This document shows, in pieces, positions 24,190 through 40,388 of a stretch of DNA of 64,000 bases (the stretch's first letter is position 1; every line of letters starts with the position of its first letter). The position numbers were made by a program, and so were the translations under genes. Below the pieces are notes generated by a model. The model was not told where the DNA came from, made no database searches, and was given only the letters and a program-made list of their open reading frames with translations. This stretch comes from Sulfurifustis variabilis (GTDB lineage Bacteria; Pseudomonadota; Gammaproteobacteria; Acidiferrobacterales; Sulfurifustaceae), in NCBI RefSeq assembly GCF_002355415.1, contig NZ_AP014936.1:2914001-2978000 (forward strand), in the 5' to 3' direction.

Positions 24190-24969
24190 ATGTCGCTCCT
24201 CAACCTGCAGCAGGCTTTCCGGAACTACATCCTGCACGGCGAGGACGCGCTCCTCTCCGGGGTGGTCGGAAGCGGGCGCATGGACGCGGGCTCGCGCCTC
24301 GCGATCTACGCGGATGCCTACCGGTTGCGGCTGAACGAGGCGCTCGAGACCGATTTCGTGGTGTTGCGCGCCCACCTCGGCCCGGAGCGCTTCGAGCGCC
24401 TCTGCGGCGCGTACATCGGCGCGCACCCTTCGAATCACTGGTCGCTGCGCTGCTTCGGCCGCCACATGAGCGCGTTCCTCGCGAGTGCCGCACCGTGGAC
24501 GAAAGAGCCCTTCCTCGCCGAGCTCGCGCGCTTCGAGTGGGCGCTGGTGGACGCGTTCGATGCCGAGGACGGCACGGTCGCGCGGCCGCACGACGTCGCC
24601 GCGATCGCTCCGGCGCGCTGGCCCCACGTCGTGATGCGACCGCACGCCTCGGTGCAGCGGCTCGATCTCGCCTGGAACGCGCCCGCGGTCTGGAAGGCGG
24701 TGAAGGACGAACAGCCGCCGCCCGCGCCGGCGCGCGCGGACCACCTGCGAGGGTGGGTGATCTGGCGTCAGGGGCTGCAGAATTACTTCCGTCCGCTTCC
24801 CGTCGAGGAGGCCTTCGCCCTCGACGCCATGCTGCGCGGCGAGGCCTTCGGTGCGATCTGCGAGGGCCTGCTCGAATGGATGGACGCGCCGAACGCCGCG
24901 GAGCGCGCGGCCGGCCTGCTGAAGCTCTGGCTAACCGACGGTCTGGTCGGCGAGCTGCGTCTGCCCTGA
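24190..24969 (+). CDS. bufC: DUF2063 partner protein of the MNIO (BufC)
   Basis: A 259-residue DUF2063-family protein. The N-terminal helical domain has the usual signature LNLQQAFRNYILHGED and RLAIYADAYRLRLNEALETDFVVLRAHLG. The C-terminal half contains VIWRQGLQNYFRPL. In MNIO systems this partner is thought to recognise the precursor peptide and present it to the enzyme. Its last 39 bases overlap the 3' end of nasA on the opposite strand, so the two transcripts converge. Confidence 0.85.
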   Translation: MSLLNLQQAFRNYILHGEDALLSGVVGSGRMDAGSRLAIYADAYRLRLNEALETDFVVLRAHLGPERFERLCGAYIGAHPSNHWSLRCFGRHMSAFLASAAPWTKEPFLAELARFEWALVDAFDAEDGTVARPHDVAAIAPARWPHVVMRPHASVQRLDLAWNAPAVWKAVKDEQPPPAPARADHLRGWVIWRQGLQNYFRPLPVEEAFALDAMLRGEAFGAICEGLLEWMDAPNAAERAAGLLKLWLTDGLVGELRLP

Positions 24970-27636
24970 TCCGGCCACGGCGGACTGCGCCAGCAGCGCC
25001 CTGAGCTCGGGGATGCAGGAGCCGCAGTTGCTGCCGGCCCCGAGACGTCGGCCGAGCGCCTCGACGCTCGTGCAGCCGTCGTGGATCGCCTCGCGGAGGG
25101 TGCGCTCGCCGACGGCGAAACACGCGCAGACCCGCCGGCCCGCGTCCGCCTGCCCCTTCGGCGGCGTGCCGGCGAGCAGGGCGGTTCTCGTCGCGGCGTC
25201 CAGCCGCGGCAGCGCGAACAGCCCCTGCAGCCACTCGCGCGAAGGCAGGCGCGGGTCCGGTCCGACAAAGAGACAGCTCTCCAGCCGGCCGCCCACGAGC
25301 CGTGCCGCCCGGTAGCGGCGGCCGGCGCGGTCGACATATTCGATCCACTCCACTCCGGCGTCGTCCGCGCACAGCAGCGCGCGTGCCGCGCGTGTCCAGT
25401 CGTCGGGCGCCTCCTTGCCGGCCAGCTCGTGGCGCCAGAGCCCGTCGCCGCGCGCCACGGCCCAGTAATCCGCGCCGGGCCGGGCGACCCGCCGGCGCGA
25501 GAGCAGGAAGCCGTGCCACGCCGCCGTCACGGGCTCGAGGCGCACCGGCGTGTGCTTGAATTCGGGCTCGCCGGAGACCGGGTCGGTCGCCGGATTGACG
25601 GCGCGGTTGACGCAGCCCGCGCTCGCGAACCGGTCGTTCCAGTGCATGGGCGCGAACACCGCGCCCGGCGACACCGCGCTCGACACGCGCACGCGCGCGC
25701 AGGCTTCTCCCCAGGCCGATATCACGCGGGCGAGGCCGCCGTCCGCGAGCCCGAACCGCGCGGCATCGTCCGGGCTGACCTCGACGTACGGCTCCACGAC
25801 ATGCGCCGAGAGCCGCGGCGACGCGCCGGTGCGCGTGAGCGTGTGCCAGTGGTCGCGCACGCGCCCGGTCGCGAGCGCCAGCGGGTGATCGTCGTCCGGC
25901 GCGTGCGCCGGAGGACGCGGCACGACGGCCACGAACCGGGCGCGCCCGCTCGGCGTGTAGAAGCCCCCGTCGACGAAACAGCGTGCCGTGCCCTCCGGCC
26001 GGGCGCGCGTCGCCGGCCACTGCACCGGCTCGAGGCGCTCGTAGCCGGCGGCGTCGAGACCGGCGAGCGCGCCGATGTCGAACGCCCTCGTCCCGTCGTT
26101 GGCGTGCGCGGAAAGCGCCGCGTGCTCGCCGAAGATCGCCGCGGCGTCCGGGTAGTCGAACGCCTCGCGAAAGCCGAGGCGCTTCGCCACCTCGCAGACG
26201 ATCCACCAGTCGGGGCGGGCTTCGCCCGGCGCCGGCAGGAAGGCGCGGCTGCGCGAGATGCGCCGTTCGGAGTTGGTCACGCTGCCGTCCTTCTCGCCCC
26301 AGGCGAGCGCGGGCAGCAGTACGTGCGCGAGGCGGGTGGTATCGGTATCGCGCACGCAGTCGGACACGACGACGAAGTCGCAGCCGGCGAGCGCCCGGCG
26401 CACGCGGCCGGCGTCCGGCAGGCTCACCGCCGGGTTCGTCGCCATGATCCAGAGCGCCTTGATCCGACCCTGCTCGACGGCCTCGAACAGCTCGACCGCC
26501 TTGAGCCCGGGCTGCTGCGCGACGCGCGGCGCGCGCCAGAAGCGCCGCACCAGTTCGCGGTGCGCCGGGTAGCCGAGCTCGAGGTGGGCGGCGAGCTGGT
26601 TGGCGAGCCCGCCGACCTCGCGCCCGCCCATCGCGTTCGGCTGGCCGGTGAGCGACAGCGGCCCCATCCCGGGGCGGCCGATGCGCCCCGTGGCGAGGTG
26701 GCAGTTGATGATGGCGTTGACCTTGTCGGTGCCGCTCGACGACTGGTTGACGCCCTGCGAGTACAGGGTGACCACGCGTTCGGTGCGCGCGAACAGCTCG
26801 TAGAACCGGCGCACCTGCTCGGTCGCCAGCCCGCATTGCGCGGCCACCGTCGCGACATCGGGGCTGCCGGCGCGCGCGGCCGCGAGCGCCTCGCCCAGCC
26901 CTTCGGTGTGGCGCTCCACGAAGGAGGCGTTGAGCTCGTCGTGCTCCGCGACGTACGCGAGCAGGCCGTTGTACAGCACCGTGTCCGTCCCGATGCGGAT
27001 CGGCAGGTGCAGGTCGGCGATGTCCGCGCTCGCGGTGCGGCGCGGATCGATCACCACGACCTTGAGGTCGTCGTGCTCCCGGCGCGCCTGCGCGAGGCGC
27101 TGGTACAGCACCGGGTGACACCAGGCGGCGTTCGAGCCGACCAGCACCACGAGCTTCGCGCGTTCGATGTCCTCGTAGCAGCCCGGCACGACGTCGGCGC
27201 CGAACGCGCGCCGGTGGCCGGCGACCGCCGAGGCCATGCACAGGCGGGAGTTGGTGTCGATGTTGGCCGAGCCGATGAACCCCTTCATCAGCTTGTTGGC
27301 GACGTAGTAGTCCTCGGTGAGCATCTGCCCGGAGACGTAGAACGCCACCGCGTCCGGCCCGTGGGTCGCGATCGCCTCGGCGAACCGGCCCGCGACCAGA
27401 CCGAGCGCCACGTCCCAGCTCGCGCGGCTGCCGCGCACCTCGGGATGGAGCAGCCGCTCCTCGAGCCCGGTGGTCTCCCCCAGCGCCGCCCCCTTCGAGC
27501 AGAGGCGGCCGCGATTCGCCGGATGCGCCGGGTCGCCGCGCACCGCGACGCGCCCGTCCGCCTCGACACGCGCCAGGACGCCGCAACCGACGCCGCAGTA
27601 CGGGCAGGTCGTCCGGATCTCAGCCGCCGCGGTCAT
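24931..27636 (-). CDS. nasA: Assimilatory nitrate reductase catalytic subunit with C-terminal BFD domain
   Basis: A 901-residue cytoplasmic molybdopterin enzyme reducing nitrate to nitrite. The N-terminal [4Fe-4S] site is CPYCGVGC plus GRLCSKG; the Mo-bisMGD regions include YSQGVNQS and GREVGGLANQL; the dinucleotide-binding domain lies near 640-760. A C-terminal BFD-like [2Fe-2S] domain (VCACFAVGE with NCGSC) receives electrons. No NasB-type flavoprotein gene is adjacent, so the electron donor is unclear. It is the last gene of nrtA-nrtB-nrtD-nirB-nirD-nasA, starting 16 bases after nirD. Its 3' end overlaps bufC. Confidence 0.92.
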   Translation of the reverse strand: MTAAAEIRTTCPYCGVGCGVLARVEADGRVAVRGDPAHPANRGRLCSKGAALGETTGLEERLLHPEVRGSRASWDVALGLVAGRFAEAIATHGPDAVAFYVSGQMLTEDYYVANKLMKGFIGSANIDTNSRLCMASAVAGHRRAFGADVVPGCYEDIERAKLVVLVGSNAAWCHPVLYQRLAQARREHDDLKVVVIDPRRTASADIADLHLPIRIGTDTVLYNGLLAYVAEHDELNASFVERHTEGLGEALAAARAGSPDVATVAAQCGLATEQVRRFYELFARTERVVTLYSQGVNQSSSGTDKVNAIINCHLATGRIGRPGMGPLSLTGQPNAMGGREVGGLANQLAAHLELGYPAHRELVRRFWRAPRVAQQPGLKAVELFEAVEQGRIKALWIMATNPAVSLPDAGRVRRALAGCDFVVVSDCVRDTDTTRLAHVLLPALAWGEKDGSVTNSERRISRSRAFLPAPGEARPDWWIVCEVAKRLGFREAFDYPDAAAIFGEHAALSAHANDGTRAFDIGALAGLDAAGYERLEPVQWPATRARPEGTARCFVDGGFYTPSGRARFVAVVPRPPAHAPDDDHPLALATGRVRDHWHTLTRTGASPRLSAHVVEPYVEVSPDDAARFGLADGGLARVISAWGEACARVRVSSAVSPGAVFAPMHWNDRFASAGCVNRAVNPATDPVSGEPEFKHTPVRLEPVTAAWHGFLLSRRRVARPGADYWAVARGDGLWRHELAGKEAPDDWTRAARALLCADDAGVEWIEYVDRAGRRYRAARLVGGRLESCLFVGPDPRLPSREWLQGLFALPRLDAATRTALLAGTPPKGQADAGRRVCACFAVGERTLREAIHDGCTSVEALGRRLGAGSNCGSCIPELRALLAQSAVAGSGQTQLADQTVG

Positions 27637-27652
27637 GAGGCACCGAACCCGG

Positions 27653-28015
27653 TCACCGGTCCGGACAGCCCTCGTCCGGCGTCAGCGAGAGGAACACCCG
27701 CCCGCCTTCGACGCGCAACGGAAAACGCGCGGCGCAGCCCTCGTCGGGCGCAACGGCGAGGCCGGTATCGAGGTGAACCTTCCAGTCGTGCAGCGGGCAG
27801 GCGACCCGGCGCCCGTGCACGATCCCCTGCGACAGCGGCCCGCCCTTGTGCGGGCACCGGTCGCGCAGCGCGAACACCTCGTCACCGGCGGTGCGGAACA
27901 CCGCGATGTCCCCGAACGCCGCGCGCACGACGCGCGCGCCCTGCCGCGGGATGCTTGCGAGCGGACCAATGTCGATCCATTCCGGTGTTATCTGCTTTGC
28001 TTGATTGACCGCCAT
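27653..28015 (-). CDS. nirD: Nitrite reductase (NADH) small subunit, Rieske-type
   Basis: A 120-residue Rieske-like protein that partners with NirB in reducing nitrite to ammonium. The iron-sulfur motif CPHKGG and CPLHDWK keep both Cys-X-His pairs, typical of [2Fe-2S]-binding NirD. The start at 28015 has GGAGGCGGGA directly upstream; an ATG 12 bases earlier contains that Shine-Dalgarno sequence and is less likely. It is separated from nirB by 337 bases of repeats, whereas these two genes are normally adjacent. Confidence 0.9.
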   Translation of the reverse strand: MAVNQAKQITPEWIDIGPLASIPRQGARVVRAAFGDIAVFRTAGDEVFALRDRCPHKGGPLSQGIVHGRRVACPLHDWKVHLDTGLAVAPDEGCAARFPLRVEGGRVFLSLTPDEGCPDR

Positions 28016-28352: not shown

Positions 28353-30791
28353 TCATCCCACGCGCCGCAGCGGAACGAACTCGTGACGGTCCTTGCCTTC
28401 GGCGCGCTCGGTCCACGGGTCCACCTGCGCGAAGGTCTGCGAGTGCAGGAAGCGCTGCGCCAGCGCCTTGCGACCGGTTTCGTCTTCCACCACGCGGCGC
28501 TTCACGTAGGCCAGGCCGACGCGCTCCACCCACGGCGCCGTGCGCTCCAGGTAATGCGCCTCCTCGCGATACACCTGCAGGAAGGCCGCGCAGTACTCCA
28601 GCACCTCTACGGGCGTCTTCACCGCGCACAGGAAGTCCGTGGCCCGCACCTTCACGCCGCCGTTGCCGCCGACGTGGAGCTCGTAGCCCGAATCGACGCA
28701 CACGACCCCGAAGTCCTTGATGGTGGCCTCGGCGCAGTTGCGCGGGCAGCCGGAGACCGCGAGCTTCACCTTGTGCGGCATCCACGAACCCCAGGCCATC
28801 TTCTCGAGCTGGATGCCCATCGTGGTCGAGTCCTGGGTGCCGAAGCGGCACCAGTTCTTGCCGACGCACGTCTTCACGGTGCGGATGGCCTTGCCGTACG
28901 CATGGCCGGAGACGAACCCCGCGCGCGACAGGTCGCCCCACATGGCCGGCAGCGTTTCCTTCGGCACGCCGAGGAAGTCGATGCGCTGGCCACCCGTGAT
29001 GTGCACCGTCGGCACCCGGTATTTCTCGGCGATCTCCGCGAGCGCCTTGAGCTCGGCGGGGGTCGTCTCGCCGCCCCAGATGCGGGGCACGACCGAATAG
29101 GTTCCGTCCTTCTGGATGTTGGCGTGCACGCGCTCGTTGATGAAGCGGGACTGGTTGTCGTCGACGTACTCGCCCGGCCAGGCGACGAGGAGATAGAAGT
29201 TGAGCGCCGGGCGGCACTTGTTGCAGCCGTCGGGCGTCTTCCATTCGAGTTTCTCCATGACCGCTCGAATCGTCTTGAGCCCGAGGCTGCGGATCGCCTC
29301 CCGGATCTCGTCGTGCGCATGGTCGGTGCAGGGGCAGAGCGGCTTCTTCTTCGGTGTCGTGGAGTAATCGCCGCCGAGCGTGGACGCGAGCAGCGCCTCG
29401 ACGAGGCCGGTGCACGAGCCGCAGGAGCTCGAGGCCTTGGTGTGGGCGCGCACCTCCTCGAGCGTGAAGAGCTTCTTGCCGGTAATGGCCGACACGATCG
29501 CACCCTTGCACACGCCGTTGCAGCCGCAGATCTCGGCGTCGTCGGCCAGCGCCGACACGCGCGTCTTGATGTCGCCGTGGCCGGAGTCGCCGACGTGCGC
29601 CTGGCCGAACAGCAGCCGGTCGCGCAGATCCGCGACGTCGGTCCCGTCGCGCATGAGCTGGAAGTACCACGCGCCGTCCATGGTGTCGCCGTACATCACG
29701 GCGCCGCGAATGCGGTTGTCCTTGAGCGCGAGCTTCTTGTATACCCCGCGGCCCGGGTCCTGCAGCACGATCTCCTCGACGCCGTCCCCGCCCTGGAATT
29801 CGCCGGCGGAAAAGAGGTCGATGCCGGTGACCTTGAGCTTGGTCGAGGTCATCGAGCCCGTGTAGCGGGCGTAGCCGAGCCGGGCGAGGTGGTTCGCGCA
29901 CACCTTCGCCTGCTCGAACAGCGGCGCCACGAGGCCGTAGGTTTGGCCCCGGTGCTGCACGCATTCGCCGACGGCGTAGATACGCGGGTCGTAGGTCTGC
30001 ATCGTGTCGTTCACGACCACGCCGCGCTCGCAATGAAGGCCCGCGCTCTGCGCGAGCGCGATGTTCGGACGGATGCCGACGGCCATCACCACGAGATCGG
30101 CCGGGATCTCGGTGCCGTCCTTGAGGCGCACCGCGCGCACGCGTTCGTCGCCGACGATCGCCTCGGTCTGCGCCTCCATGGCGAAACGGAGCCCGCGCTC
30201 TTCGAGCGAGCGCCTGAGAAGCGCCGCCGCCGCCCGGTCGAGCTGCTTCTCCATGAGCGCATCGAGCAGGTGGATCACCGTCACGCGCATCCCCTGCTTC
30301 AGCAGGCCGTTCGCGGCCTCGAGTCCCAGCAGGCCGCCGCCGATGACGACCGCGTCCTGCCTCGACCGGGCGATCGCCAGCATGCACTCCACGTCGTACA
30401 GATCGCGGAAGGTCACGACGCCCGGCAGCTTCGTCCCCGGCACGGGGATCACGAACGGCGCGGACCCCGTGGCGAGGATCAGCCGGTCGTAGGGCGCCTC
30501 GGTACCGTCGGCGGCCACCACCCGGCGACGGGCCCGGTCGATGCGGACCACCTCCTTGCCCTTGTGCAGCGTGATGCCGTTGCCCGCGTACCAGCCATCG
30601 CCGTTGAGGACGATCTCCTCGAACCGCTTCTCGCCGGTCAGCACCGGCGAGAGCAGGATGCGGTTGTAGTTCGGCAGCGGCTCGGCGCCGAACACCGTGA
30701 CGGCGTACCGGTCCGGCGCGAGCTCGATCAGCTCCTCGAGCGCGCGCACGCCCGCCATGCCGTTGCCGACCAGCACCAGTCTTTCCTTCAT
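28353..30791 (-). CDS. nirB: Nitrite reductase (NADH) large subunit
   Basis: About 812 residues with the full NirB order. The FAD/NAD(P)H reductase comes first (LVLVGNGMAG, then VVIGGGLLGLEAANGL and IYAVGECVQHRG), followed by a BFD-like [2Fe-2S] domain (CGCNGVCKG and SSCGSC). The sulfite/nitrite reductase ferredoxin-like and sirohaem/[4Fe-4S] domains end the protein (CVGKNWCRFG and SGCPRNCAEA). It carries out six-electron reduction of nitrite to ammonium in the cytosol. Two in-frame ATGs lie six bases apart; the second (30791) is better spaced from GGGGAGG. It begins 13 bases after nrtD. Confidence 0.93.
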   Translation of the reverse strand: MKERLVLVGNGMAGVRALEELIELAPDRYAVTVFGAEPLPNYNRILLSPVLTGEKRFEEIVLNGDGWYAGNGITLHKGKEVVRIDRARRRVVAADGTEAPYDRLILATGSAPFVIPVPGTKLPGVVTFRDLYDVECMLAIARSRQDAVVIGGGLLGLEAANGLLKQGMRVTVIHLLDALMEKQLDRAAAALLRRSLEERGLRFAMEAQTEAIVGDERVRAVRLKDGTEIPADLVVMAVGIRPNIALAQSAGLHCERGVVVNDTMQTYDPRIYAVGECVQHRGQTYGLVAPLFEQAKVCANHLARLGYARYTGSMTSTKLKVTGIDLFSAGEFQGGDGVEEIVLQDPGRGVYKKLALKDNRIRGAVMYGDTMDGAWYFQLMRDGTDVADLRDRLLFGQAHVGDSGHGDIKTRVSALADDAEICGCNGVCKGAIVSAITGKKLFTLEEVRAHTKASSSCGSCTGLVEALLASTLGGDYSTTPKKKPLCPCTDHAHDEIREAIRSLGLKTIRAVMEKLEWKTPDGCNKCRPALNFYLLVAWPGEYVDDNQSRFINERVHANIQKDGTYSVVPRIWGGETTPAELKALAEIAEKYRVPTVHITGGQRIDFLGVPKETLPAMWGDLSRAGFVSGHAYGKAIRTVKTCVGKNWCRFGTQDSTTMGIQLEKMAWGSWMPHKVKLAVSGCPRNCAEATIKDFGVVCVDSGYELHVGGNGGVKVRATDFLCAVKTPVEVLEYCAAFLQVYREEAHYLERTAPWVERVGLAYVKRRVVEDETGRKALAQRFLHSQTFAQVDPWTERAEGKDRHEFVPLRRVG

Positions 30792-30804
30792 CGTCATCCT
30801 CCCC

Positions 30805-31605
<801 letters not shown>

Positions 31606-31616
31606 GATCGCTCCCT

Positions 31617-32516
31617 CTAGCGGGCGGTGGGGTCGAGGCGACGCTGCACGGCGTTCATCAGCCCCTCCAGCGCCATGCCGACGAGGCCGATCACGACGAT
31701 CGCGACGATGATCGAGGAGACGTTCAGGTTGTTCCATTCGTCCCACACGTAGAAGCCGATGCCGATACCGCCCGTGAGCATCTCGGCGGCCACGATCACC
31801 ATCCAGGCGATGCCGAGCGACAGCCGCATGCCCGCGAGGATGTACGGGCGCGCGGCGGGAAGCAGGATCTTCGTCGCGACCTCGATCGGGTTGAGCTTGA
31901 GCACGCGCGCGACGTTCATGTAGTCCCGCGGGATCGCGCGCACGCCGGCCGCGGTGTTGAGCAGCGTGGGCCAGATGCAGGTGATGAAGATCACGAAGAT
32001 CGCCGACGGGTTGACCGCCTTGAAGAGGAGCAGCCCGATCGGCAGCCACGCGAGCGGGCTCACCGGCCGCAGGATCTGGACCAGCGGCTGCCAGGCGGTG
32101 TCGAAGGTCCTGCTCGCGCCCATGAGGAACCCGACCGGAATGGCCACCAGTACGGCGAGGCCGAAGCCGGCCGCGACGCGCCCGAGCGAGTACAAGAGCT
32201 GCCAGCCGATGCCCTTGTCGTTCGGGCCGGCGTCGCGGAACGGATCGGCGAAGATCTCGAGCGCGCGCTCGGCGGCCGCCTTCGGGCTCGGCAACTCCGG
32301 GGCGACGTGCGCCTGCACGATCGCCCAGGCGGCGAGCAGGACGAGGAAAGTCAGGAGCGGCAGGCTGAGGCGCGCCAGCCAGTCCCGGCCGACGCGCACT
32401 CGCCGCCGACCCGGCGAGGCCGTCGCCGGCGGCGCGGGCGAAGCGGCGCCGGCGGATTTCGGGACCGGTTGCGCTTCGGACTTCTTGGGCGCGAGTTTCA
32501 CGATGGCTGCGGGCAT
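31617..32516 (-). CDS. nrtB: Nitrate ABC transporter permease
   Basis: A 299-residue inner-membrane permease of the NrtB/SsuC family. An unusually Pro/Ala-rich cytoplasmic N-terminus (about 45 residues) precedes about six helices, starting with LPLLTFLVLLAAWAIV. The coupling loop is ARVLKLNPIEVATKILLPAA, and AWMVIVAAEMLTGGIGIGF is a family hallmark. AGGAGGGACCC directly precedes the ATG. It lies between nrtA and nrtD. Confidence 0.9.
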   Translation of the reverse strand: MPAAIVKLAPKKSEAQPVPKSAGAASPAPPATASPGRRRVRVGRDWLARLSLPLLTFLVLLAAWAIVQAHVAPELPSPKAAAERALEIFADPFRDAGPNDKGIGWQLLYSLGRVAAGFGLAVLVAIPVGFLMGASRTFDTAWQPLVQILRPVSPLAWLPIGLLLFKAVNPSAIFVIFITCIWPTLLNTAAGVRAIPRDYMNVARVLKLNPIEVATKILLPAARPYILAGMRLSLGIAWMVIVAAEMLTGGIGIGFYVWDEWNNLNVSSIIVAIVVIGLVGMALEGLMNAVQRRLDPTAR

Positions 32517-32532: not shown

Positions 32533-33960
32533 TCACGCGTTGACCCTGGCGAGCGCCGCCAGGTCCACCTTCATGGTCTGGACCTCGAAGCTCTTCAGGT
32601 AGGCGAGCGGCCTGGCCGGGTCGAACGTCATCCCGTCGAAGAACCGGTCCGGGCCCATCGCGATCGGCTGCGTCGCCTGGGTCAGCGTCCACGGGCCGGC
32701 GTGCGTGCCTTCGGTCTTGCGGTCGACCGTGGGCACCGGAATGCCCAGCGCCTTCGCCGCGTCGCGATAGATGTCGGGACGGTACACCGCCGCGGCGGTC
32801 TTCCGGATGTCGAGCGGCTGCTCGATCTGCCCCCAGCGGATCATCTGGCCGATGAACCATTCGGCGTGCGAGCGCCACGGGAAGGTGGCGGCGTAGCGGT
32901 AGAACACGTTGAAGTCCGGCAGCGGCCGCGGCGCCTCGTTCTTGCCGTACTGGTAGGTGCCGGTCATGGACATCTTCACGACCTCTTCCGGCGCGTTCAC
33001 GTAGGATTTCTGCGAGATGATCTTCACCACCTCCATGCGGTTCTCCGGCTGGTCCATCCACTGCGCCGCCTCGAGCAGCGCGCGGATCGCGGCCCGGTGG
33101 GTGTTCGGGTGCTTCTCGGCCCACTCGAGGTTCACGCCGAACACCTTCTCCGGGTTGTTGTTCCAGATCTCGTAGTTGGTGATGATCGTGCGCCCGAGCC
33201 CCGCGGTGACGGCGCGCTCGTTCCACGGCTCGCCGACGCAGTAGCCGACGATGTTCCGGGCCGAGAGGTTCGCCACCATCTGCGGCGGCGGGATCACGAT
33301 CAGGCGCACGTCGTTGTCCGGATCGATGCCGGCCGAGGCCATCCAGTAGCGCAGCTCGTAGTTGTGCGTCGAGACCGGGAACACGACGGCAAACGTCATC
33401 GGCGGTCTTCCCGCCTTCCGGTCGGCGTCGATCACCTTCTTCAGGGCGCGCGCCGTGGTCGGGCGTTCCTGCATGGCCTGCGGATCGGCCGCCACCATGC
33501 GCTCGTAAAGCTCGTTCGAGACGGTGATGCCGTTGCCGTTGAGGTCCATGCTGAAGGCGGTCACGGTCGGCTTCGGCACCGCGCCGATGCCGAGGCTCGC
33601 GGCGATCGGCATGCCCGCCAGCATGTGCGCGCCGTCGAGCGCACCGATCGAGACCTTGTCGCGGATATTGGCCCACGACGCTTCTTTGGAGATCGCGACG
33701 TCGAGGCCCTGCTTCCTGAAGTAGCCCTTCTCCGCGGCCACCACGAGCACCGCGCAGTCGGTGAGGGGGATGATGCCGAAGGTGAGCCTCGTCTTCTCGA
33801 GCGGCTCGCCGCTGCCGGCGTAGGCCCCCACGCGCAGGAAGTCGGGCAACAGGCTGCCGACGCCGATCGCCCCGATCCCGGCCGCGCCGGTGCGCAGGAA
33901 CGTCCTGCGCGACGGCTGCGGCGGCGCCCCTTTTCCACGGTACTTGTCGCCAGCGCTCAT
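32533..33960 (-). CDS. nrtA: Nitrate ABC transporter substrate-binding protein with Tat signal
   Basis: A 475-residue NrtA-type binding protein. A twin-arginine signal is visible as PSRRTFLRTGAAGIG, so it is exported folded to the periplasm and is not a cytoplasmic NasS sensor. The mature part begins LTFGIIPLTDCAVLVVAAEKGYF and contains nitrate-site segments such as HMLAGMPIA and VGYCVGEPWN. The start at 33960 fits the signal peptide; upstream sequence is the NasT leader. It is the first gene of the nitrate import and reduction operon. Confidence 0.9.
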   Translation of the reverse strand: MSAGDKYRGKGAPPQPSRRTFLRTGAAGIGAIGVGSLLPDFLRVGAYAGSGEPLEKTRLTFGIIPLTDCAVLVVAAEKGYFRKQGLDVAISKEASWANIRDKVSIGALDGAHMLAGMPIAASLGIGAVPKPTVTAFSMDLNGNGITVSNELYERMVAADPQAMQERPTTARALKKVIDADRKAGRPPMTFAVVFPVSTHNYELRYWMASAGIDPDNDVRLIVIPPPQMVANLSARNIVGYCVGEPWNERAVTAGLGRTIITNYEIWNNNPEKVFGVNLEWAEKHPNTHRAAIRALLEAAQWMDQPENRMEVVKIISQKSYVNAPEEVVKMSMTGTYQYGKNEAPRPLPDFNVFYRYAATFPWRSHAEWFIGQMIRWGQIEQPLDIRKTAAAVYRPDIYRDAAKALGIPVPTVDRKTEGTHAGPWTLTQATQPIAMGPDRFFDGMTFDPARPLAYLKSFEVQTMKVDLAALARVNA

Positions 33961-33993: not shown

Positions 33994-34039
33994 AAAAAAA
34001 AGCGCCCATGGTCCGGGCTCCCGCCCGGCACATGGACGC
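33994..34039 (-). terminator. Conditional intrinsic terminator in the nrtA leader
   Basis: On the minus strand GCGTCCATG pairs with CATGGGCGC (one G-U pair), with an inner CCGGGC/GCCCGG stem, followed by eight U. It ends 34 bases before the nrtA start. Confidence 0.85.
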
Positions 34040-34113
34040 CGTTGTCCCGCGAGCGCGCTCGGCCGACGCGGCCGACGCTTCGCATAGCGCACGTCCCGCC
34101 GTTGGGCCGTGCC
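33994..34113 (-). promoter_or_regulatory. ANTAR/NasT-responsive leader RNA upstream of nrtA
   Basis: Read on the minus strand. The first hairpin (34112-34089) has arms GCACG and CGTGC plus CCC/GGG closing a hexaloop AACGGC. The second (34047-34034) is GGAC, hexaloop AACGGC, GTCC. Both loops have A at position 1 and G at position 4, the recognition rule for ANTAR-domain antiterminators. The 3' arm of hairpin 2 is part of the 5' arm of the terminator at 33994-34039, so the two structures exclude each other. NasT binding should allow read-through into nrtA when nitrate or nitrite is present. Confidence 0.85.
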
Positions 34114-34136
34114 TCGTGTTCAGCAGGCTGCCCTTC

Positions 34137-34152
34137 AGCAATCGCCGTGCCA
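34137..34152 (-). promoter_or_regulatory. Sigma-54 promoter of the nrtA operon
   Basis: The minus strand reads TGGCACGGCGATTGCT, matching the -24/-12 consensus TGGCACN5TTGCW in all key positions. Transcription would start near 34126, about a dozen bases before the first ANTAR hairpin. The same element occurs at the equivalent position in front of the globin operon. Confidence 0.78.
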
Positions 34153-34225
34153 GCGGCGATGCGGACGATTCTCCCTGCAAATACGGCACCCGGGCGCACC
34201 GGCGATCCTGCCGGGCATCCCGTCC

Positions 34226-34306: not shown

Positions 34307-34897
34307 TCACGCATCGATCGGGATGCGGATCACGACTCCGCCCATCACGTCGCCGATCCTGAAGTCGGTCCGCGGGCTGTCCTTGTGCTCGTTGTGGCAG
34401 GTCACGCACGCCGGGGCGACGGCATAGTCGGGATAGACGGCCGTGAAGTACGTCTTGTCCCCGAGCTTCTCCTTCGCGTAATAGTTCTCCCCTTTCTTGT
34501 CGATGATGTACTGAAGGCCGGCCTTCTCGGCCTCGGTCTTCGGCGCGTTCTGCTTGTTCACCGGCCACAGCGACAGCAGCGAGTAGCTGAACGTCGCCCC
34601 CTTGTCGCGCACCATCTCGGCGCCGGCGCGGAACATCTGCGCCGGGAGCACCAGCGCCTTGTCTTCCTTCCAGTGCTCGCTCGCCTTGATGATCTTTTCC
34701 TCGTTCTGAAGGCGGTTGACGATCAGCTTCGTGTACACCGTGCGGTCGGTCTCGAGCACCGTGTGCAGCGCGTCGGTCATGGCCTGCGGCGTGATGCCTC
34801 CCTCGCTCTTCGAGCCGGAGGCGCTGCATCCGGCTACCGCAACGGTCGAGGCGGCCGCGACCAGCGCGAGTCGCAGGGAACGGGTGGGATATTTCAT
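34307..34897 (-). CDS. DUF3365 (Tll0287-like) haem-binding lipoprotein
   Basis: A 196-residue lipoprotein. The N-terminus carries a signal with lipobox VAGC (Cys near residue 24). The body matches the DUF3365/Tll0287-like sensor-type domain (ALVLPAQMFRAGAEMV, then SLLSLWPVNKQNAPKTEAEKAGL), and a c-type haem motif CVTCH lies near the C-terminus. It should face the periplasm. Its ATG overlaps the stop of the multihaem cytochrome gene (ATGA), so the two are translationally coupled. It is the last gene of the globin operon. A redox or signalling role is likely, but the partner is unknown. Confidence 0.8.
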   Translation of the reverse strand: MKYPTRSLRLALVAAASTVAVAGCSASGSKSEGGITPQAMTDALHTVLETDRTVYTKLIVNRLQNEEKIIKASEHWKEDKALVLPAQMFRAGAEMVRDKGATFSYSLLSLWPVNKQNAPKTEAEKAGLQYIIDKKGENYYAKEKLGDKTYFTAVYPDYAVAPACVTCHNEHKDSPRTDFRIGDVMGGVVIRIPIDA

Positions 34898-36261
34898 CGT
34901 GGTCTCCTGGGTTGACGGGGTTGGGAAAGGCGCTCGAGCGCCATGTCGATGCTCGTCACGTGGTGCGCCGGGCGGCCGGCGAAGTTGCGCCGGACCAGGT
35001 CCGGGTCGGCCAGCGCGTCGATCGAGAACGCGAGGCCGTGGCAGGCGAGGCAGACGCCGCGGACCATCTTCTCGTTCGGCCGCAGGTTGGCGTTCTGGTT
35101 GTGCTCGACCCGTACCTGGGTCTCGACGCCGCCCGCCTTGCGGGGCGTGCGCGGCAGGTGGCAGGTGGCGCAGGAGACGCCGCTGCCCGCCGCGGCCTCG
35201 CCACGAAGCTCGGCGCTCCACAGCCGGGCATGCGCCGAGCCCCGATAGGCGCGGCTGTGGTCGTCGTCGTGGCAGCCGAGGCAGGACTCCGCCGCGGCGG
35301 TGCGCGTGTCGAACGCGTGGGCGCCGTGGCAGCTGGTGCAGCCGAGCTCGCGGTCCGCGGCATCGGCGTGCATGGGAAGGCGCGCCTCGCGCGGGCGCAT
35401 CGGGGGCAGCTGCTGTTTCAAGCGCATGCCGTGCCTGCCGGCCTCGAAGCCCTCGCGCTCCTCGCTGTGGCAGCCTGCGCAAACCGCCGGCGCCGGCCGG
35501 TCGACCCATGCGCTCGCCGCCGAAGCGTCGGGGCCGCGATGGCAGTCGCGGCAGTTGACGCCGGCGCGCGCGTGAGCGGTTGCCCTCCAGTCTTCGAGCA
35601 GCTTCGCGTCGGTGACCCTGTCCGCCGGCGCGTCGTGGTCGGCGGCGTCGAGCGGCGGGCGGCGCGCGATGCCGGCCGCCTGCATCCAGTTGCGCAGATC
35701 GCGCATGCCGAGCCGCGCGGGCGCGAGCGTAGCCGGCCGATCGCGGTGCTTGACGAGGAAGTCCTCGTAGAGCGCCGAGTTGTCGTGGTAGTTGTGACAA
35801 CCGGCGGAGGCGCAGGTATCGAAGGCGAGGTTCGCGTGCGAGGGCCGCTCCGCGCCCACCTCGGCATGACAATGCACGCACAGGTCCTCCGGCAGCGTAA
35901 CGCCCATGGCGCGCGTGCGCTGCGGCCGGTGCTCGGTGTGGCAGGTGATGCACCGGCGGGCGTCGATCGTCTCCAGCAGTTCGGCGTTGCGCGGGTCGTC
36001 GAACTTCGACTTCGGGTGCGAGTCCTTGACCGCCTCGAGCTCGGTGCCGTGACACGCGACGCAGGCAGCCTGCTTCACGCCGCCGAAGGGCGTGTGGCAA
36101 ACCTCGCACGCCTTCTCGATCTGGTAGTGGCCGTCGATCATCGTGCCCGGGGTGAACACGGTCTTGTCGGCCCACACCAGCCGCGCGGCGAGATAGCCGC
36201 TCAGCGCGACCGCGAGCGCCAGCGCCGCGATCCACCATCCGATGCGACTTCTCGCAGCCAT
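34894..36261 (-). CDS. Multihaem cytochrome c (10 CxxCH plus one CX4CH), membrane-anchored
   Basis: A 455-residue protein. One N-terminal helix (IGWWIAALALAVALSGYLAA) anchors it with the rest in the periplasm. Haem motifs in order are CEVCH, CVACH, CITCH, CVHCH, CASAGCH (CX4CH), CRDCH, CAGCH, CTSCH, CLGCH, CATCH and CLACH, eleven in all. No CxxCK active-site motif of NrfA-type nitrite reductase is present. Extra His residues, such as those in CHTEH and CHNYH, probably supply distal ligands. It lies 9 bases after the flavoprotein gene and overlaps the DUF3365 gene. It is probably an electron conduit or reductase tied to the nitrogen-assimilation regulon. Confidence 0.85.
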   Translation of the reverse strand: MAARSRIGWWIAALALAVALSGYLAARLVWADKTVFTPGTMIDGHYQIEKACEVCHTPFGGVKQAACVACHGTELEAVKDSHPKSKFDDPRNAELLETIDARRCITCHTEHRPQRTRAMGVTLPEDLCVHCHAEVGAERPSHANLAFDTCASAGCHNYHDNSALYEDFLVKHRDRPATLAPARLGMRDLRNWMQAAGIARRPPLDAADHDAPADRVTDAKLLEDWRATAHARAGVNCRDCHRGPDASAASAWVDRPAPAVCAGCHSEEREGFEAGRHGMRLKQQLPPMRPREARLPMHADAADRELGCTSCHGAHAFDTRTAAAESCLGCHDDDHSRAYRGSAHARLWSAELRGEAAAGSGVSCATCHLPRTPRKAGGVETQVRVEHNQNANLRPNEKMVRGVCLACHGLAFSIDALADPDLVRRNFAGRPAHHVTSIDMALERLSQPRQPRRPR

Positions 36262-36270
36262 GCGCGGCGC

Positions 36271-38256
36271 TCAGAAGTAGTAGACCGAGAGGACGTGGAA
36301 CGCGAGCAGCGGCGGGAGCGGCCAGGTGCACACGATGTGCAGCAGCGTGCTCACCGAACGCGCGCGCCGACTCCAGCGGCTCGGCACCCCCTCCAGCGCC
36401 ACCGCGGCGGCCGCGAGCGACCCGAGCTTCGTCAGCGCCAGGAAGCACAGCAGGAGCCAGAAATTGAGATGGCTGCCGGCGTGCAGGCCCGTATGCAGCG
36501 CGACGACGACGAGCGCCGCGACGCCGAGGCCGGCGTGGGCGAGCCGCCACCCGCCGTAGTCGCCGACGCGCAAGCGCGCCCAGCGCTTGCGCAGCGACAG
36601 CGGGATCGCCCCTGCCGCGATGGCGAGGAGCGTGTAGCCGCTCGCCTGCTTCCACACGGCGTCGGTCCACAGCACCTCGGGCTTCCACCCGCCCTGCACC
36701 GTCGCGTCGTGCGGGAGCGGCCCGGGCCAGATGAACAGCGCCAGCAGGAGCAGCGTCGAGGCGGCGACGGCCGCCATCGCGCGCGTGCCCGCCCGCGGCG
36801 TCGCCGGAGCCTGGGCGCCCAGGAGCCGGGCGAGCAGCGGACGGCAGGAGCCGCATACCGTCCCGGCCGAGGTCGACGCGCCGAGTTGCTCGACCGTGCG
36901 GCAACCCCGGGCGATCGCCGACGTCAGCGCTGCGCGCGTCACTCCGGCGCAGTTGCAGACGGTGGCGTTCGCCGGCCAGTCGGCCACGGCGTCCGCGTTT
37001 CCGTCGCCCCACAGCACGCCTTCGCGGCGGAAGCGCCATAACTGCATCGGGCCCAGCCGGCGGCGGTGGGTGATCGCTTCCTGCAGCCGGGGAAGCTCCG
37101 ACCAGTCGCCGACGGCGACCGCGCCCACGATCCGGTTCCGCGCGAGCACGAGCCGGCGGTGCACGCCTGCTCCAGGCCGCGCGTGGACGACCGCGCGGTG
37201 CGCGCTCGGGTTCTCGTCGTCGCCGACCTCGCCCATGCTGAACACGGGCAGGCCGACCACCTTGAGCTGCGCCGGGGACATCCGCGCCTCGAAGCGCGCG
37301 TCCGCGCCGAGAATGCGATGCGCCGCCACGGCCGCCTGCTCGAGGCCCGGCGCCACCAGTCCGATGACCTGGCCACGGTGCTCGGCGCATTCCCCGACCG
37401 CGTAGATCGCGGGATCGATCGTGCGCATGGCGTCGTCCACCCGGATGCCGCGCCCGACGCTCAGGCCCGCGGCGAGGGCGAGCTCGATGTTCGGCCGGAT
37501 GCCGGTCGCGAGCACGAGCGTATCGCACGCGAGCTCCGAGCCGCTCAGCAGGCGCACGCCCTCCACCGCCCGCCCGCCGAGCACGTCGCGCACGCCGTCG
37601 GCGAGCACGACGCGGATCCCGAGTCCCTCGACGTGCCGCTTCAGCAGGGCGGCCGCCGGCGGATCGAGATGGCGGTTCATGAGCCGCCCCGCATGCTGCA
37701 CCACGACGACGTCGGTGCGCCGTCGTCGCAGCGCCCGGGCCGCCTCGATCCCGAGCAGGCCGCCGCCGAGCACGACCGTGGTGCGGGTACGTACACTGCG
37801 CGCCATGAGCCGCTGCACGTCGCTCATGTCGCGAAAGGTGTACACGCCGGCACGCTCGATGCCCGCGATCCGCGGCACGTGCGGGCGCGAACCGGTCGCC
37901 AGCACGAGCGCGCGATACGCCTGCTCGCGCCCCGCGGCGTCGCGCACGCGGCGGCGCTCGCGGTCGATCGCGAGCACCGGGCAGTGATGACGCTGCACCA
38001 CGCGGTGGTCCCCCGGCAGCGCCAGCGGGTTCGCCACGCCGCTCCAGCCGATCTCGCCCATCAGCAGCGCCGACAGCCGGACGCGCTGATACGGCTCCCA
38101 CGGCTCGTCGCCGTAGAGCACGATCGGGCAGTACGGGTCGCGCCGCAGCAGCTCCGCGGCCACGCGCATCCCGACCGGCCCGGTGCCGACAATGACGATC
38201 GGCGCCGGGCCGGCCGCGGTCGGCGCCGGCTCAGCCGGCCGCGGCAACGCCGGCAT
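36271..38256 (-). CDS. NirB-like FAD/NAD(P)H reductase fused to BFD [2Fe-2S] and membrane cytochrome-b-like domain
   Basis: About 661 residues. Three parts are visible. The first is a NirB/rubredoxin-reductase type FAD and NAD(P) domain (IVIVGTGPVGMRVAAEL, VVLGGGLLGIEAARAL, IYAVGECAEHRGQ). The second is a BFD-like [2Fe-2S] domain with VCNCAG and VCGSC. The third is a C-terminal region of about five helices with His residues placed for haem b, for example in WRLAHAGLG, ALHTGLHAG and LLAFHVL. The sirohaem half of NirB is absent. It should carry electrons between NAD(P)H and the membrane or periplasmic haems. It overlaps the globin gene by 26 bases; an upstream ATG at 38280 is an alternative start. 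I know no characterised protein with this architecture. Confidence 0.8.
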   Translation of the reverse strand: MPALPRPAEPAPTAAGPAPIVIVGTGPVGMRVAAELLRRDPYCPIVLYGDEPWEPYQRVRLSALLMGEIGWSGVANPLALPGDHRVVQRHHCPVLAIDRERRRVRDAAGREQAYRALVLATGSRPHVPRIAGIERAGVYTFRDMSDVQRLMARSVRTRTTVVLGGGLLGIEAARALRRRRTDVVVVQHAGRLMNRHLDPPAAALLKRHVEGLGIRVVLADGVRDVLGGRAVEGVRLLSGSELACDTLVLATGIRPNIELALAAGLSVGRGIRVDDAMRTIDPAIYAVGECAEHRGQVIGLVAPGLEQAAVAAHRILGADARFEARMSPAQLKVVGLPVFSMGEVGDDENPSAHRAVVHARPGAGVHRRLVLARNRIVGAVAVGDWSELPRLQEAITHRRRLGPMQLWRFRREGVLWGDGNADAVADWPANATVCNCAGVTRAALTSAIARGCRTVEQLGASTSAGTVCGSCRPLLARLLGAQAPATPRAGTRAMAAVAASTLLLLALFIWPGPLPHDATVQGGWKPEVLWTDAVWKQASGYTLLAIAAGAIPLSLRKRWARLRVGDYGGWRLAHAGLGVAALVVVALHTGLHAGSHLNFWLLLCFLALTKLGSLAAAAVALEGVPSRWSRRARSVSTLLHIVCTWPLPPLLAFHVLSVYYF

Positions 38257-38671
38257 GGCTCGGCTCGCCGTAGGCCGCATCGATCATGGTCTGCGCGAGA
38301 ACGCCGTAGACGGCGCCCCAGGCTTCCCGCACCTCGGGCGTGAAGCTCGGGCCCAGGCCCTGCCCGAGCGTCCACAGCAGCGCGGCGCCGACCGTCTCGT
38401 AGTGCGCGGCGGTGACCCCGTAGGCGACATGGCGCCGCCCGAGGTCCTGGACCACCGGCACGAGCTCGCTCATCCGGTCCAGGCCGTTGACCGCCATGGC
38501 GATCATGCGCATGAGCTTCGCGCCCTGCTCCCTCATGTCACCGCGAAACAGCGCCTTCAGCGACGGATCGAGCTCGAACAGCCGTCGGTAGAAAAGCGCC
38601 GCCGCCTGGTCGGCGATGGGGGCGACCTGCGTGAAGGTCGCCTGGACCAGCAACTTCTGTTTCGGTGTCAT
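38231..38671 (-). CDS. Single-domain globin (Vitreoscilla-haemoglobin type)
   Basis: A 146-residue full-length globin. Conserved features are YRRLFELDP (B helix), the CD1 Phe in LKALF, the proximal His in GRRHVAYGV and the G-helix AHYETVGAALL. There is no reductase domain, unlike flavohaemoglobin. Such globins bind O2 or NO and, with a reductase, can dioxygenate NO to nitrate. GGGAG lies ahead of the ATG at 38671. It is the first gene after the second NasT leader and overlaps the NirB-like reductase gene, its most likely electron source. Confidence 0.88.
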   Translation of the reverse strand: MTPKQKLLVQATFTQVAPIADQAAALFYRRLFELDPSLKALFRGDMREQGAKLMRMIAMAVNGLDRMSELVPVVQDLGRRHVAYGVTAAHYETVGAALLWTLGQGLGPSFTPEVREAWGAVYGVLAQTMIDAAYGEPSHAGVAAAG

Positions 38672-38713: not shown

Positions 38714-38760
38714 AAAAAAAAACGCCCAGTCGCCGGGCGCTTGCCCGGAGAACTGGACGC
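38714..38760 (-). terminator. Conditional intrinsic terminator in the globin-operon leader
   Basis: On the minus strand GTCCAGT pairs with ACTGGGC across an inner CCGGGC/GCCCGG-type stem, followed by nine U. It ends 42 bases before the globin start. Confidence 0.83.
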
Positions 38761-38829
38761 CTTTGTCCCCTCGCCTCAGCCGGCCTCGGCTGAGGCGTTG
38801 CGCCGGCACGTCCGCCGTTGGGCCGTGCC
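38714..38829 (-). promoter_or_regulatory. ANTAR/NasT-responsive leader RNA upstream of the globin operon
   Basis: On the minus strand, hairpin 1 (38829-38805) has arms GGCACG/CGTGCC around a loop containing AACGGC. An extra perfect stem GCCTCAGCC/GGCTGAGGC follows (about 38796-38773). Hairpin 2 (38768-38755) is GGAC, hexaloop AAAGGC, GTCC. A1 and G4 are kept in both loops. The GTCC arm runs into the terminator at 38714-38760, as in the nrtA leader. The shared primary sequence of hairpin 1 shows common descent of the two leaders. Confidence 0.83.
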
Positions 38830-38857
38830 GCAATCGAGTCTATGCTCCTCGCGACCA

Positions 38858-38873
38858 AGCAATCGCGGTGCCA
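38858..38873 (-). promoter_or_regulatory. Sigma-54 promoter of the globin operon
   Basis: The minus strand reads TGGCACCGCGATTGCT, a full -24/-12 match and nearly identical to the nrtA promoter. The start point would be near 38846, about 17 bases before hairpin 1. Confidence 0.78.
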
Positions 38874-38947
38874 ACTCCGGACTCGACTCAACTGCGCGCC
38901 GTTGCTGGGTTTTTCACGCGCGCACGTCAATCGATGCATTCAAGCTG

Positions 38948-39427: not shown

Positions 39428-40015
39428 CTAGGCGAGCAGCTCGGCCGCGGCGATCACGCTTTCGGCGATGTCGATCAGGCGCTTGTTGCGGTCCATGGCC
39501 AGCTTGCGCAGCGCCTTGTACGCCTCGTCCTCCGACATCCCCCGCTTCTGCATGAGGATGCCCTTGGCGCGCTCGACGATCTTGCGGTCGGCGAGCTGCG
39601 AGCGCGCTTGCTCGAGCTCGGTCCGCATCGCCTGGAACTCGCGGAAGCGCGCGATGGCGACTTCCAGGATCGGCCTGATGCGGGCGGGACTGAGCCCGTC
39701 CACGACGTACGCGCTGACGCCGGCCTTGATCGCCGCCTCCGCCGTCGCGCGGTCGCTTCGTTCCGCGAACATCACGACGGGGCGCGGCCGGTCGCGGCTG
39801 ATCGAGCGCATGTGCTCGAGGGTGTCGCGGTCCGGAAGCTCCATGTCGATCAGGATGACGTCCGGGTCGGCGTGCCTGACGCGGGCGAGCACGTCCTCGT
39901 TCTTTCCCGCGCGCGCGACGACCTCGCAGCCGGAATCGGCCAGCGCCTGCGTCAGCAAGGCGGCGCGGCCGCGGTCGTCGTCCACGAGCATCACCCTCAG
40001 TTTCGCTGCCGTCAT
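39428..40015 (-). CDS. nasT: ANTAR-domain antiterminator NasT
   Basis: A 195-residue response regulator. The N-terminal receiver has the acidic pocket MLVDDD and phosphoacceptor Asp in VILIDMELP. A coiled coil and a C-terminal ANTAR RNA-binding domain follow (ERAKGILMQKRGMSEDEAYKALRKLA). NasT binds two-hairpin leaders and prevents termination; two such leaders occur upstream of nrtA and the globin gene. The start at 40015 gives the usual length. Its usual inhibitor and nitrate sensor, NasS, is not encoded next to it or elsewhere in the window. Confidence 0.92.
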   Translation of the reverse strand: MTAAKLRVMLVDDDRGRAALLTQALADSGCEVVARAGKNEDVLARVRHADPDVILIDMELPDRDTLEHMRSISRDRPRPVVMFAERSDRATAEAAIKAGVSAYVVDGLSPARIRPILEVAIARFREFQAMRTELEQARSQLADRKIVERAKGILMQKRGMSEDEAYKALRKLAMDRNKRLIDIAESVIAAAELLA

Positions 40016-40388
40016 CCGCGCGACCACCCCTCGTTCACGTTCACCCCAGGTAACGGCGACAGCTTTCGCTCGCACGGCGAACGACCCTCCGGCCGCGGCG
40101 CCCGGAACCCGCCTGCGCCGAGCGGTCGTCGACGAGCAGACGCGTTCGCGCCGCATCGCCGTGACGACAGCAAGCGATGTGCCAGCCGGGTTTGCCCGGC
40201 CAATCAAGGCGCTAGTCGCCTCCCGCGAATCCCGCCTGCACCACGCCCGGGAAAACCCGCGCCCGGTCGAACCGCGCTGGTGCGCCTGCCCACCCGATCG
40301 CCCGCGTACCGGCACGCGCGGCCCCGCCAGTTCGTCGGCGGGTGGCAACTCGGTTAGAATTCGTCGAGCTCCCGCTCTGCTTGCACCC
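40016..40388. other. Intergenic gap with no recognised gene
   Basis: The 373 bases between divergent nasT and the Atm1-type exporter gene have open frames only as GC-driven artefacts. They must hold promoters for both genes, but I see no sigma-54 match, leader hairpins or repeat family here. Confidence 0.6.

Follow-up and report, generated by a model that had tools for sequence, protein, structure and literature searches.

Bacteria that assimilate nitrate can make nitric oxide (NO) and nitrite at the site of nitrate reductase, and to our knowledge the protection of the periplasm and the respiratory chain in such bacteria is poorly understood. A locus in a cultured type strain, the sulfur oxidiser Sulfurifustis variabilis skN76, gives this question a concrete form. 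The window analyzed here, meaning the whole stretch of 64,000 nucleotides, belongs to a genome that forms a single contig of 3,958,814 bases. At 34307-38671 on its minus strand, four open reading frames lie in the order globin, FADm, MHC and Tll, flanked by nasT and by nrtABC-nirBD-nasA. FADm denotes a fusion of a NirB-like FAD/[2Fe-2S] reductase with a membrane domain of five helices, MHC an 11-haem cytochrome, and Tll a Tll0287-like haem protein. What might such an operon do in a nitrate-assimilation cluster? Our leading answer, which we hold tentatively and at less than full persuasion, is that it encodes a nitrate/nitrite-responsive relay from NAD(P)H to the periplasm together with a cytoplasmic globin, and that it may remove NO and nitrite in the cytoplasm and the periplasm alike.

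Results

A near-obligatory gene triad with an interchangeable partner

All four reading frames are present where the initial annotation had placed them, and Pfam agrees with the domains it named. The single-domain globin (146 residues; 38231..38671, on the minus strand like every gene of the operon and its cluster; Pfam Globin, 64.3 bits) is followed by FADm (36271..38280; Pyr_redox_2, 170.8 bits, with Rubredoxin_C and Fer2_BFD), by MHC (34894..36261; Pfam Cytochrom_c3_2/C7), which has an N-terminal hydrophobic anchor, and by Tll (34307..34897), a DUF3365/sCache_heme lipoprotein scoring 71.5 bits with PF11845 against a cut-off of 24.1. The start of FADm is uncertain: it overlaps the globin gene by 50 bases if it begins at 38280, and by the 26 bases given previously only if it begins at 38256. 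The remaining spacings were borne out, with a 9-base gap between FADm and MHC, which begins at 36261, and a 4-base overlap between MHC and Tll, which begins at 34897.

The arrangement recurs well outside this genome. FADm was detected at E<=1e-100 in 24 of 369 genomes sampled from the class and in 3 of 41 relatives, the S. variabilis genome being included in both counts. We examined 27 loci, all selected for FADm or its membrane domain (the window, L008, L033-L055, L080 and L081), with genes identified by tblastn and a retrained gene caller; L008, on a named contig of a metagenome-assembled genome labeled Candidatus Muproteobacteria, was the one locus obtained from a scan of named genome contigs. 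MHC directly follows FADm at 26 of 26 assessable loci (it is truncated in L033, and L045 ends before it), Tll comes in series after MHC at 25 of 26, and at 25 of 26 the three genes are contiguous in the same order and on the same strand, across two classes. Since the operon is conserved across relatives, a chance arrangement is unlikely. Pairwise distances among the FADm, MHC and Tll proteins correlate with r of 0.65-0.75 (0/2000 permutations each), which may partly mirror the species tree. Searched across the phylum, the membrane domain had matches at E<=0.001 in 23 of 398 genomes; three matches were strong (the genome itself, G511 from the same class and G530 from another class), and the other 20 were weak and partial. 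No MHC relative was found among plasmid records at E<=1e-20.

An O2/NO-binding partner of one of three kinds accompanies the triad at 19 of the 27 loci. A globin of the window's family occurs at 14 (the copy in L046 is only 32% identical), a truncated globin at two (L051, by a PF01152 scan, and L049, by blast), and a haemerythrin upstream at three (L053 and L054, by a PF01814 scan, and L081, by blast). The haemerythrin genes, at 11048-11590 in L053, 7765-8313 in L054 and 10313-10849 in L081, lie upstream of FADm genes that have no globin, which suggests that haemerythrin may take the place of globin as the O2/NO-binding protein. Globin distances correlate with those of FADm (r 0.51; 0/2000 permutations), MHC (0.38; 14 permutations) and Tll (0.24; 89 permutations), a coupling that is weaker than within the triad, yet present. 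The co-occurrence analysis proposed with the initial annotation therefore separates the four genes it had grouped: FADm-MHC-Tll is the near-obligatory unit, frequently joined by an O2/NO-binding partner that can be exchanged for one of another kind.

FADm joins a NirB-type dehydrogenase to a putative bis-haem membrane domain

The first 490 residues of FADm make up an NAD(P)H dehydrogenase of the NirB type. It carries a BFD [2Fe-2S] site, whose cysteines C442, C444, C476 and C479 are invariant in 24 FADm sequences. Its closest other homologue in the genome is the organism's own NirB, at 39% identity over residues 26-489. NIR_SIR, the sirohaem/4Fe-4S half of NirB, was unmatched at E<=0.01 in a Pfam scan, and FADm scores 378 bits against TIGR02374, under the cut-off of 578.

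The C-terminal ~178 residues are of a different kind. Their family mean shows five hydrophobic peaks, centered at 510, 554, 589, 618 and 655, and this membrane domain is present in all 24 aligned FADm sequences. Four histidines are invariant in 24 of 24 and form two HX13H pairs, H582/H596 on helix 3 and H648/H662 on helix 5; the domain also carries an invariant RKR motif, and the loop joining helices 4 and 5 is basic. By the positive-inside rule, basic loops face the cytoplasm. With the RKR motif and the helix 4-5 loop placed inside, one histidine of each pair would lie near each face of the membrane, and the pattern fits two stacked haems b. PF01794 gave a sub-threshold match in 2 of 10 membrane domains scanned and did not match the remaining 8.

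A relative from another class bears on the donor. In L080, the locus of G530, an FNR-type flavin/NAD module (PF00970 + PF00175) lies between the BFD and membrane domains, an addition that fits NAD(P)H as the electron donor. This variant with a second flavin module occupies 1-1695, the contig beginning within the gene, and is followed by an MHC with 11 CXXCH motifs and then by Tll.

MHC as a conductor, Tll as a possible terminus and the globin as a possible second branch

MHC contains ten CXXCH motifs and one CX4CH, which is probably a real haem site because the L080 relative has CXXCH at that place. Across 23 aligned sequences and L080, 22 histidines are invariant, 11 within the motifs and 11 elsewhere, which would most simply mean that all 11 haems are bis-His, the pairing being taken from the counts alone. 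Such a protein fits a role as conductor and electron store rather than enzyme. In its middle and C-terminal haem regions MHC is locally similar to NrfA and octahaem nitrite reductases (E about 1e-7). We considered MHC as a catalytic nitrite or NO reductase and disfavor it, since the 11 further invariant histidines match the 11 motifs and no haem appears obviously open for catalysis.

Tll has a lipobox at C24, one CXXCH and no other cysteine after the lipobox. Across its family the CXXCH is present in 23 of 23 sequences, and in 23 of 23 no further cysteine follows the signal or lipobox, whereas a stand-alone PF11845 paralogue from the same genome (L086) has an extra cysteine in its N-terminal part. 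A profile search of the PDB with Tll gave no match at E<=1. In a 2026 preprint (PMC12889525), a stand-alone sCache_heme protein with Cys/His ligation is described as letting NO go fast, and a signaling-type sCache_heme protein without the axial cysteine as keeping it tightly. The Tll haem would lack that axial cysteine, and it is possible, though not established, that it is exchangeable and open to NO or nitrite.

In the globin, Y28, Q49 and H81 are invariant in 13 aligned sequences, the divergent fourteenth (L046) standing outside the alignment. We take these residues to be Tyr B10, Gln E7 and His F8, as would be expected for an O2-activating, NO-dioxygenating globin. The closest PDB entries to the globin profile are 3WFW (E 7e-44) and 3S1I (E 2e-39), presumably Hell's Gate globins IV and I, and then neuroglobin, Vitreoscilla and flavohaemoglobin structures. 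The window globin is the only match to the profile in the S. variabilis genome at E<=0.001. Such globins need an electron donor, which in several known cases is a flavin reductase (PMC3820574).

The operon is linked to nitrate-assimilation signals

A NasT-type leader precedes the operon at 38714..38824 (minus strand; covariance model; fold z -5.47). It contains GGCCCAACGGCGG at 38812-38824 and a second hairpin, GGACAAAGGCGTCC, at 38755-38768, and it ends in a competing intrinsic terminator with a T9 end at 38714. A second leader of this type lies before nrtA (33994..34108, minus strand; covariance model; fold z -4.41), and in both a small hairpin (GGACAAAGGCGTCC or GGACAACGGCGTCC) is set against a strong competing terminator. 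Control by NasT-type leaders through the ANTAR mechanism is established, and the operon looks as if it is controlled in this way, with NasT binding predicted.

The covariance model was built by hand, since an Rfam scan of the window returned zero families at gathering thresholds. Its training set comprised 16 leaders, of which 15 were chosen by eye and pattern upstream of loci included in the subsequent search and one lies ahead of nrtA; both window leaders belong to this set, so their self-matches are not independent. Over the 3.96-Mb genome, where 150 of 2665 first-look candidates were scored, the model gave two strong matches, before nrtA (E 4e-10) and the globin operon (E 1.2e-9), the next having E 0.33. 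In a search of 24 loci (437 kb) the same two scored E 4.4e-11 and E 1.3e-10, respectively, and a leader was found before 17 of 24 FADm operons, 15 of those 17 being training sequences. Nine matches at E<1e-3 are independent of the training set (excluding a second-strand match at the L051 training site). Six of them precede nrtA-like genes (L008, L035, L036, L040, L043 and L047), two precede FADm (L038 and L049), and one precedes a porin gene in L035. This gene (11164-12464) encodes a predicted outer-membrane porin of the Alginate_exp family, a candidate nitrate/nitrite porin; relatives of it adjoin Tll in L036, L039 and L044.

Promoter matches point the same way. The exact sigma-54-type pattern TGGCACN5TTGCT occurs three times in the window, all on the minus strand: upstream of nasT (40169..40184), the globin operon (38858-38873, within a promoter placed at 38855..38874) and nrtA (34137-34152, within a promoter placed at 34134..34153). 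Allowing up to one mismatch, five sites were observed where 0.56 would be expected; the two additional ones are elsewhere, at 9329 and 9497. Among relatives a looser pattern occurs in 6 of 24 upstream regions and in 0 of 24 reverse strands, which is only suggestive of sigma-54 control there.

Gene neighborhood and genome content extend the link. The genes do not occur together mainly away from nitrate assimilation and NasT leaders: at 19 of 24 loci the operon is preceded by a NasT-type leader, the fetched DNA includes nasT, nrt or nirB, or both. NasT (E<=3e-25) is found in 20 of 24 FADm-containing genomes of the class against 61 of 345 without FADm (Fisher p 4.5e-11), and NirB above its cut-off in 19 of 24 against 147 of 345 (p 5e-4; one of the NirB proteins, from G020, being counted as above cut-off by inference from its E-value); both statistics ignore shared ancestry. 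Together, the leaders, promoter matches and neighborhood support the connection to nitrate assimilation that the initial annotation had drawn.

The surrounding cluster spans 24931 to about 40015 in the window. nasT (39428..39991, 187 residues as called, with a start perhaps 24 bases earlier) encodes a receiver and an ANTAR domain according to Pfam, with 77.1 bits for ANTAR and 65.2 for Response_reg on the longer frame 39431-40174; nasS is not beside it (39428-40348). Between nasT and the globin leader, at 39080-39340, lie near-repeated G+C-rich palindromes (ccctctcccg...cgggagaggg) that resemble intergenic repeats. On the other side of the operon are an nrtA-like gene for a substrate-binding protein (32533..33960), named from its context; an nrtB-like permease gene (31617..32516; Pfam BPD_transp_1, 90.9 bits); an nrtC/D gene for a nitrate ATP-binding cassette (ABC) ATPase (30805..31605; TIGR01184, 316 bits, cut-off 291.8); nirB, for the large subunit of NADH nitrite reductase (28353..30797; TIGR02374, 930 bits, cut-off 578); and nirD (27653..27973; TIGR02378, 88.2 bits, cut-off 74.65). 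For the nrtA product no library model exceeded its cut-off, the distant SsuA-family match reaching 39.6 bits against 163.5; other NrtA-like matches in the genome are distant from it, one in an ABC cassette at G000:C1:343419-344600 and a weak one at 2733303-2734175. The cluster ends with a nasA-like molybdopterin reductase gene (24931..27636; 901 residues), also named from context. Its product strongly matches the Fdh, NasC and NasA models, all below their cut-offs, and has a C-terminal BFD-type [2Fe-2S] domain that aligns to TIGR02374 positions 417-470.

Discussion

A tentative two-sided mechanism

In the mechanism that we tentatively favor, NAD(P)H would reduce the FAD of FADm, and electrons would pass to the BFD [2Fe-2S] cluster, the point of branching. 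On the cytoplasmic branch, FADm would re-reduce the globin working as an NO dioxygenase, as has been proposed for Bradyrhizobium Flp and Bjgb. On the membrane branch, electrons would cross two stacked haems b, the inner one held by H582/H648 and the outer one by H596/H662, to reach MHC, which would store them and conduct them to Tll, where NO or nitrite could be reduced or captured outside. A leader triggered by nitrate or nitrite would turn the operon on alongside the production of NasA and NirBD, and the system would clear NO and nitrite in both compartments of cells that import and reduce nitrate. The anatomy fits the trans-envelope electron path put forward in the initial annotation, while we infer the direction of flow and the detoxification of NO.

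Several observations weigh against this proposal. The functions proposed are predictions from sequence, and exporting NAD(P)H electrons would be costly for a chemolithoautotroph. Matches of the membrane domain to Pfam haem-b families (DUF4405, cytochrome b561, Ferric_reduct) were all below cut-off in the 10 domains scanned, and AlphaFold2 models built from two-row alignments had mean confidence scores (pLDDT) of 51 for the membrane domain and 37 for Tll, too poor for judging a bis-haem fold or a Tll pocket. As to the partner, neither globin nor haemerythrin was found in the examined DNA of 6 of the 27 loci (L033, L036, L039, L044, L048 and L080), and two more loci stop at a contig edge with no partner seen. 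Flavohaemoglobin (Hmp), above cut-off in 1 of 24 FADm-containing genomes and 25 of 345 others (26 of 369), is too rare to inform.

The Tll terminus and the regulatory link draw objections of their own. Another PF11845 paralogue of the same genome (L087, gene 4) likewise has no cysteine besides its CXXCH. In PMC12889525, replacing the axial cysteine of the Pseudomonas putida stand-alone protein by alanine (C59A) left NO release fast, so a missing cysteine alone does not give a tight NO binder, and the sole stand-alone member tested in that preprint looks redox-like. Five of 24 loci (L042, L045, L053, L054 and L055) have neither leader nor nearby nas genes, L042, L045 and L055 being on short contigs, and 4 of 24 FADm-containing genomes (G177, G180, G219 and G323) lack NasT at the threshold used; in G177 and G180, nir or nrt genes adjoin the operon. 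The Bradyrhizobium precedent is itself condition-dependent in its control: NasT acts on denitrification genes too, and in B. diazoefficiens without NasT, narK-bjgb-flp increased under denitrifying conditions (PMC6759348). These two results suggest that the signal is nitrate or nitrite rather than assimilation alone and that control may be complex.

Competing explanations

A different use of the same parts is that FADm supplies electrons to NasA, as a counterpart of NasC or Flp, with the haem chain exchanging electrons with a periplasmic donor; nitrate reduction would then not depend on NAD(P)H only, and the globin would give incidental NO protection. Nitrate is a strong enough oxidant for haem or quinol pools to pass electrons to it. 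The window's cluster has nasA and nirBD and no separate NasC-type reductase, FADm's nearest relative in the genome is NirB, and the local NasA-like protein has a BFD [2Fe-2S] domain at its C-terminus. In B. japonicum, flp is required for growth on nitrate (PMC4724949). This requirement and the BFD tail of the NasA-like protein keep alive the idea that nitrate reductase is an additional, or even the main, recipient of electrons from FADm. We nevertheless consider it rather doubtful, since it leaves unexplained why Tll is as regular a member as MHC and why globin or haemerythrin partners recur, and since conservation extends to the half that binds NAD(P)H, one relative adding a second NAD/flavin module; inward flow would, moreover, oppose the membrane potential.

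The relay might instead deliver reductant to Tll or to small cytochromes for sensing of NO or redox state, for repair of periplasmic proteins or for other periplasmic enzymes, as MsrQ does for MsrP, rather than for NO removal. Tll belongs to a Cache sensor superfamily, and the stand-alone relative that has been tested looks redox-like (PMC12889525). A gene for a small class-I cytochrome separates Tll from globin at 8 loci, and L051 has a related gene; in L041 a methyl-accepting chemotaxis protein (HBM + HAMP + MCPsignal; 11564-13474) is encoded near the operon on the other strand; the two-helix histidine pattern, moreover, is like that of NOX/ferric-reductase domains. Among 20 neighboring proteins scanned with Pfam, a minority of all neighbors, this chemotaxis protein is the sole signaling one and no methionine-sulfoxide-reductase-type family appears. 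Sensing or maintenance also does not predict NasT control, the tie to nitrate, or globin linkage, and we hold this account to be similarly doubtful.

That a known globin/reductase pair, for which the two-gene precedent exists (PMC4724949), simply lies beside unrelated cytochromes is very improbable, already disfavored by the contiguity of the triad and by its correlated distances, even if these partly mirror the species tree.

Significance

The operon offers a concrete, testable machine with a new dehydrogenase-membrane fusion, and it provides a physiological context for DUF3365/sCache_heme proteins; beyond the 24 class-sampled genomes, S. variabilis included, it extends to one or more genomes from a second class of the phylum. 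A bolder form of the proposal is that FADm founds a new class of NAD(P)H:periplasm oxidoreductase (NirB-type dehydrogenase, BFD and bis-haem-b domain) that powers, via an 11-haem capacitor, a cysteine-free sCache_heme protein as terminal NO or nitrite reductase, with the flavin shared with the globin inside. We think this unlikely as it stands. If it were true, one operon would defend both compartments, and a Cache-fold haem protein would have an enzymatic role.

Comparison with known systems

The closest described system is narK-bjgb-flp-nasC of B. japonicum, in which a single-domain globin and an FAD-dependent NAD(P)H oxidoreductase share a nitrate-assimilation operon that has been studied with NasS-NasT (PMC4724949, PMC6759348), and in which bjgb and flp mutants are NO-sensitive (PMC4724949). 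The present operon has the same features, namely a Tyr/Gln/His globin, an adjacent FAD reductase gene and a NasT-type attenuator with predicted NasT binding, and the earlier statement that no described system has this composition was too strong. Flp is cytoplasmic by description, whereas FADm carries a membrane domain and is tied to MHC and Tll; this comparison is one of descriptions, not of sequences. An operon of globin, NirB-like membrane fusion, multihaem cytochrome and DUF3365 protein was not described in titles or abstract openings of open-access PMC articles, among the matches listed, which is weak evidence of absence. The inner half, globin and FAD reductase, is of an already known kind; the membrane relay is without a found precedent in that same set of matches.

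Taken part by part, FADm resembles the N-terminal half of NirB and soluble NADH/rubredoxin-type reductases in combining Pyr_redox_2, Rubredoxin_C and BFD, and differs from NirB in having the five-helix domain in place of the sirohaem half. MHC, unlike NrfA and the octahaem nitrite reductases, has no catalytic haem of the CXXCK type, the motif that defines those enzymes. Tll shares PF11845, a single CXXCH and a stand-alone secreted form with the sCache_heme proteins of PMC12889525; the stand-alone protein characterized there has an axial cysteine, which Tll lacks, and Tll is linked to a dedicated electron-supply chain.

Looser parallels occur in our own searches. In L083 (3392-9314) and L084 (2023-8284), both from genomes of another class, genes for a cyclic-nucleotide (cNMP)-binding/FAD/4Fe-4S protein, a b-type membrane cytochrome, a decahaem cytochrome and a metallophosphatase lie side by side, the cNMP/FAD/4Fe-4S protein and the decahaem protein with an FHA-like domain being confirmed by scan in L083 only. 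These sets likewise combine a cytoplasmic flavin/FeS protein, a membrane haem-b-like protein and a multihaem cytochrome, but as separate proteins, with 4Fe-4S in place of BFD and a weak, partial match to the membrane domain, and gene calling gave no Tll at these loci. L082 has a related cNMP/4Fe-4S protein, a b-type protein and a tetrahaem cytochrome, and in L085 (4312-6929) a 310-residue protein weakly like the FADm membrane domain adjoins a 502-residue protein with 21 CXXCH motifs.

The nearest functional analogy is to NOX, ferric reductases and MsrQ, which have two pairs of histidines on helices 3 and 5, spaced by about 13 residues, and send electrons outward from a cytoplasmic flavin dehydrogenase. 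FADm resembles them in its two conserved histidine pairs on two helices. It differs in having an N-terminal dehydrogenase of the glutathione-reductase type with BFD rather than a C-terminal one of the FNR type, in having a multihaem cytochrome as partner, and in giving no PF01794 match above cut-off. As proposed, the relay works like the NOX and MsrPQ systems, and by its domain composition it stands apart from them.

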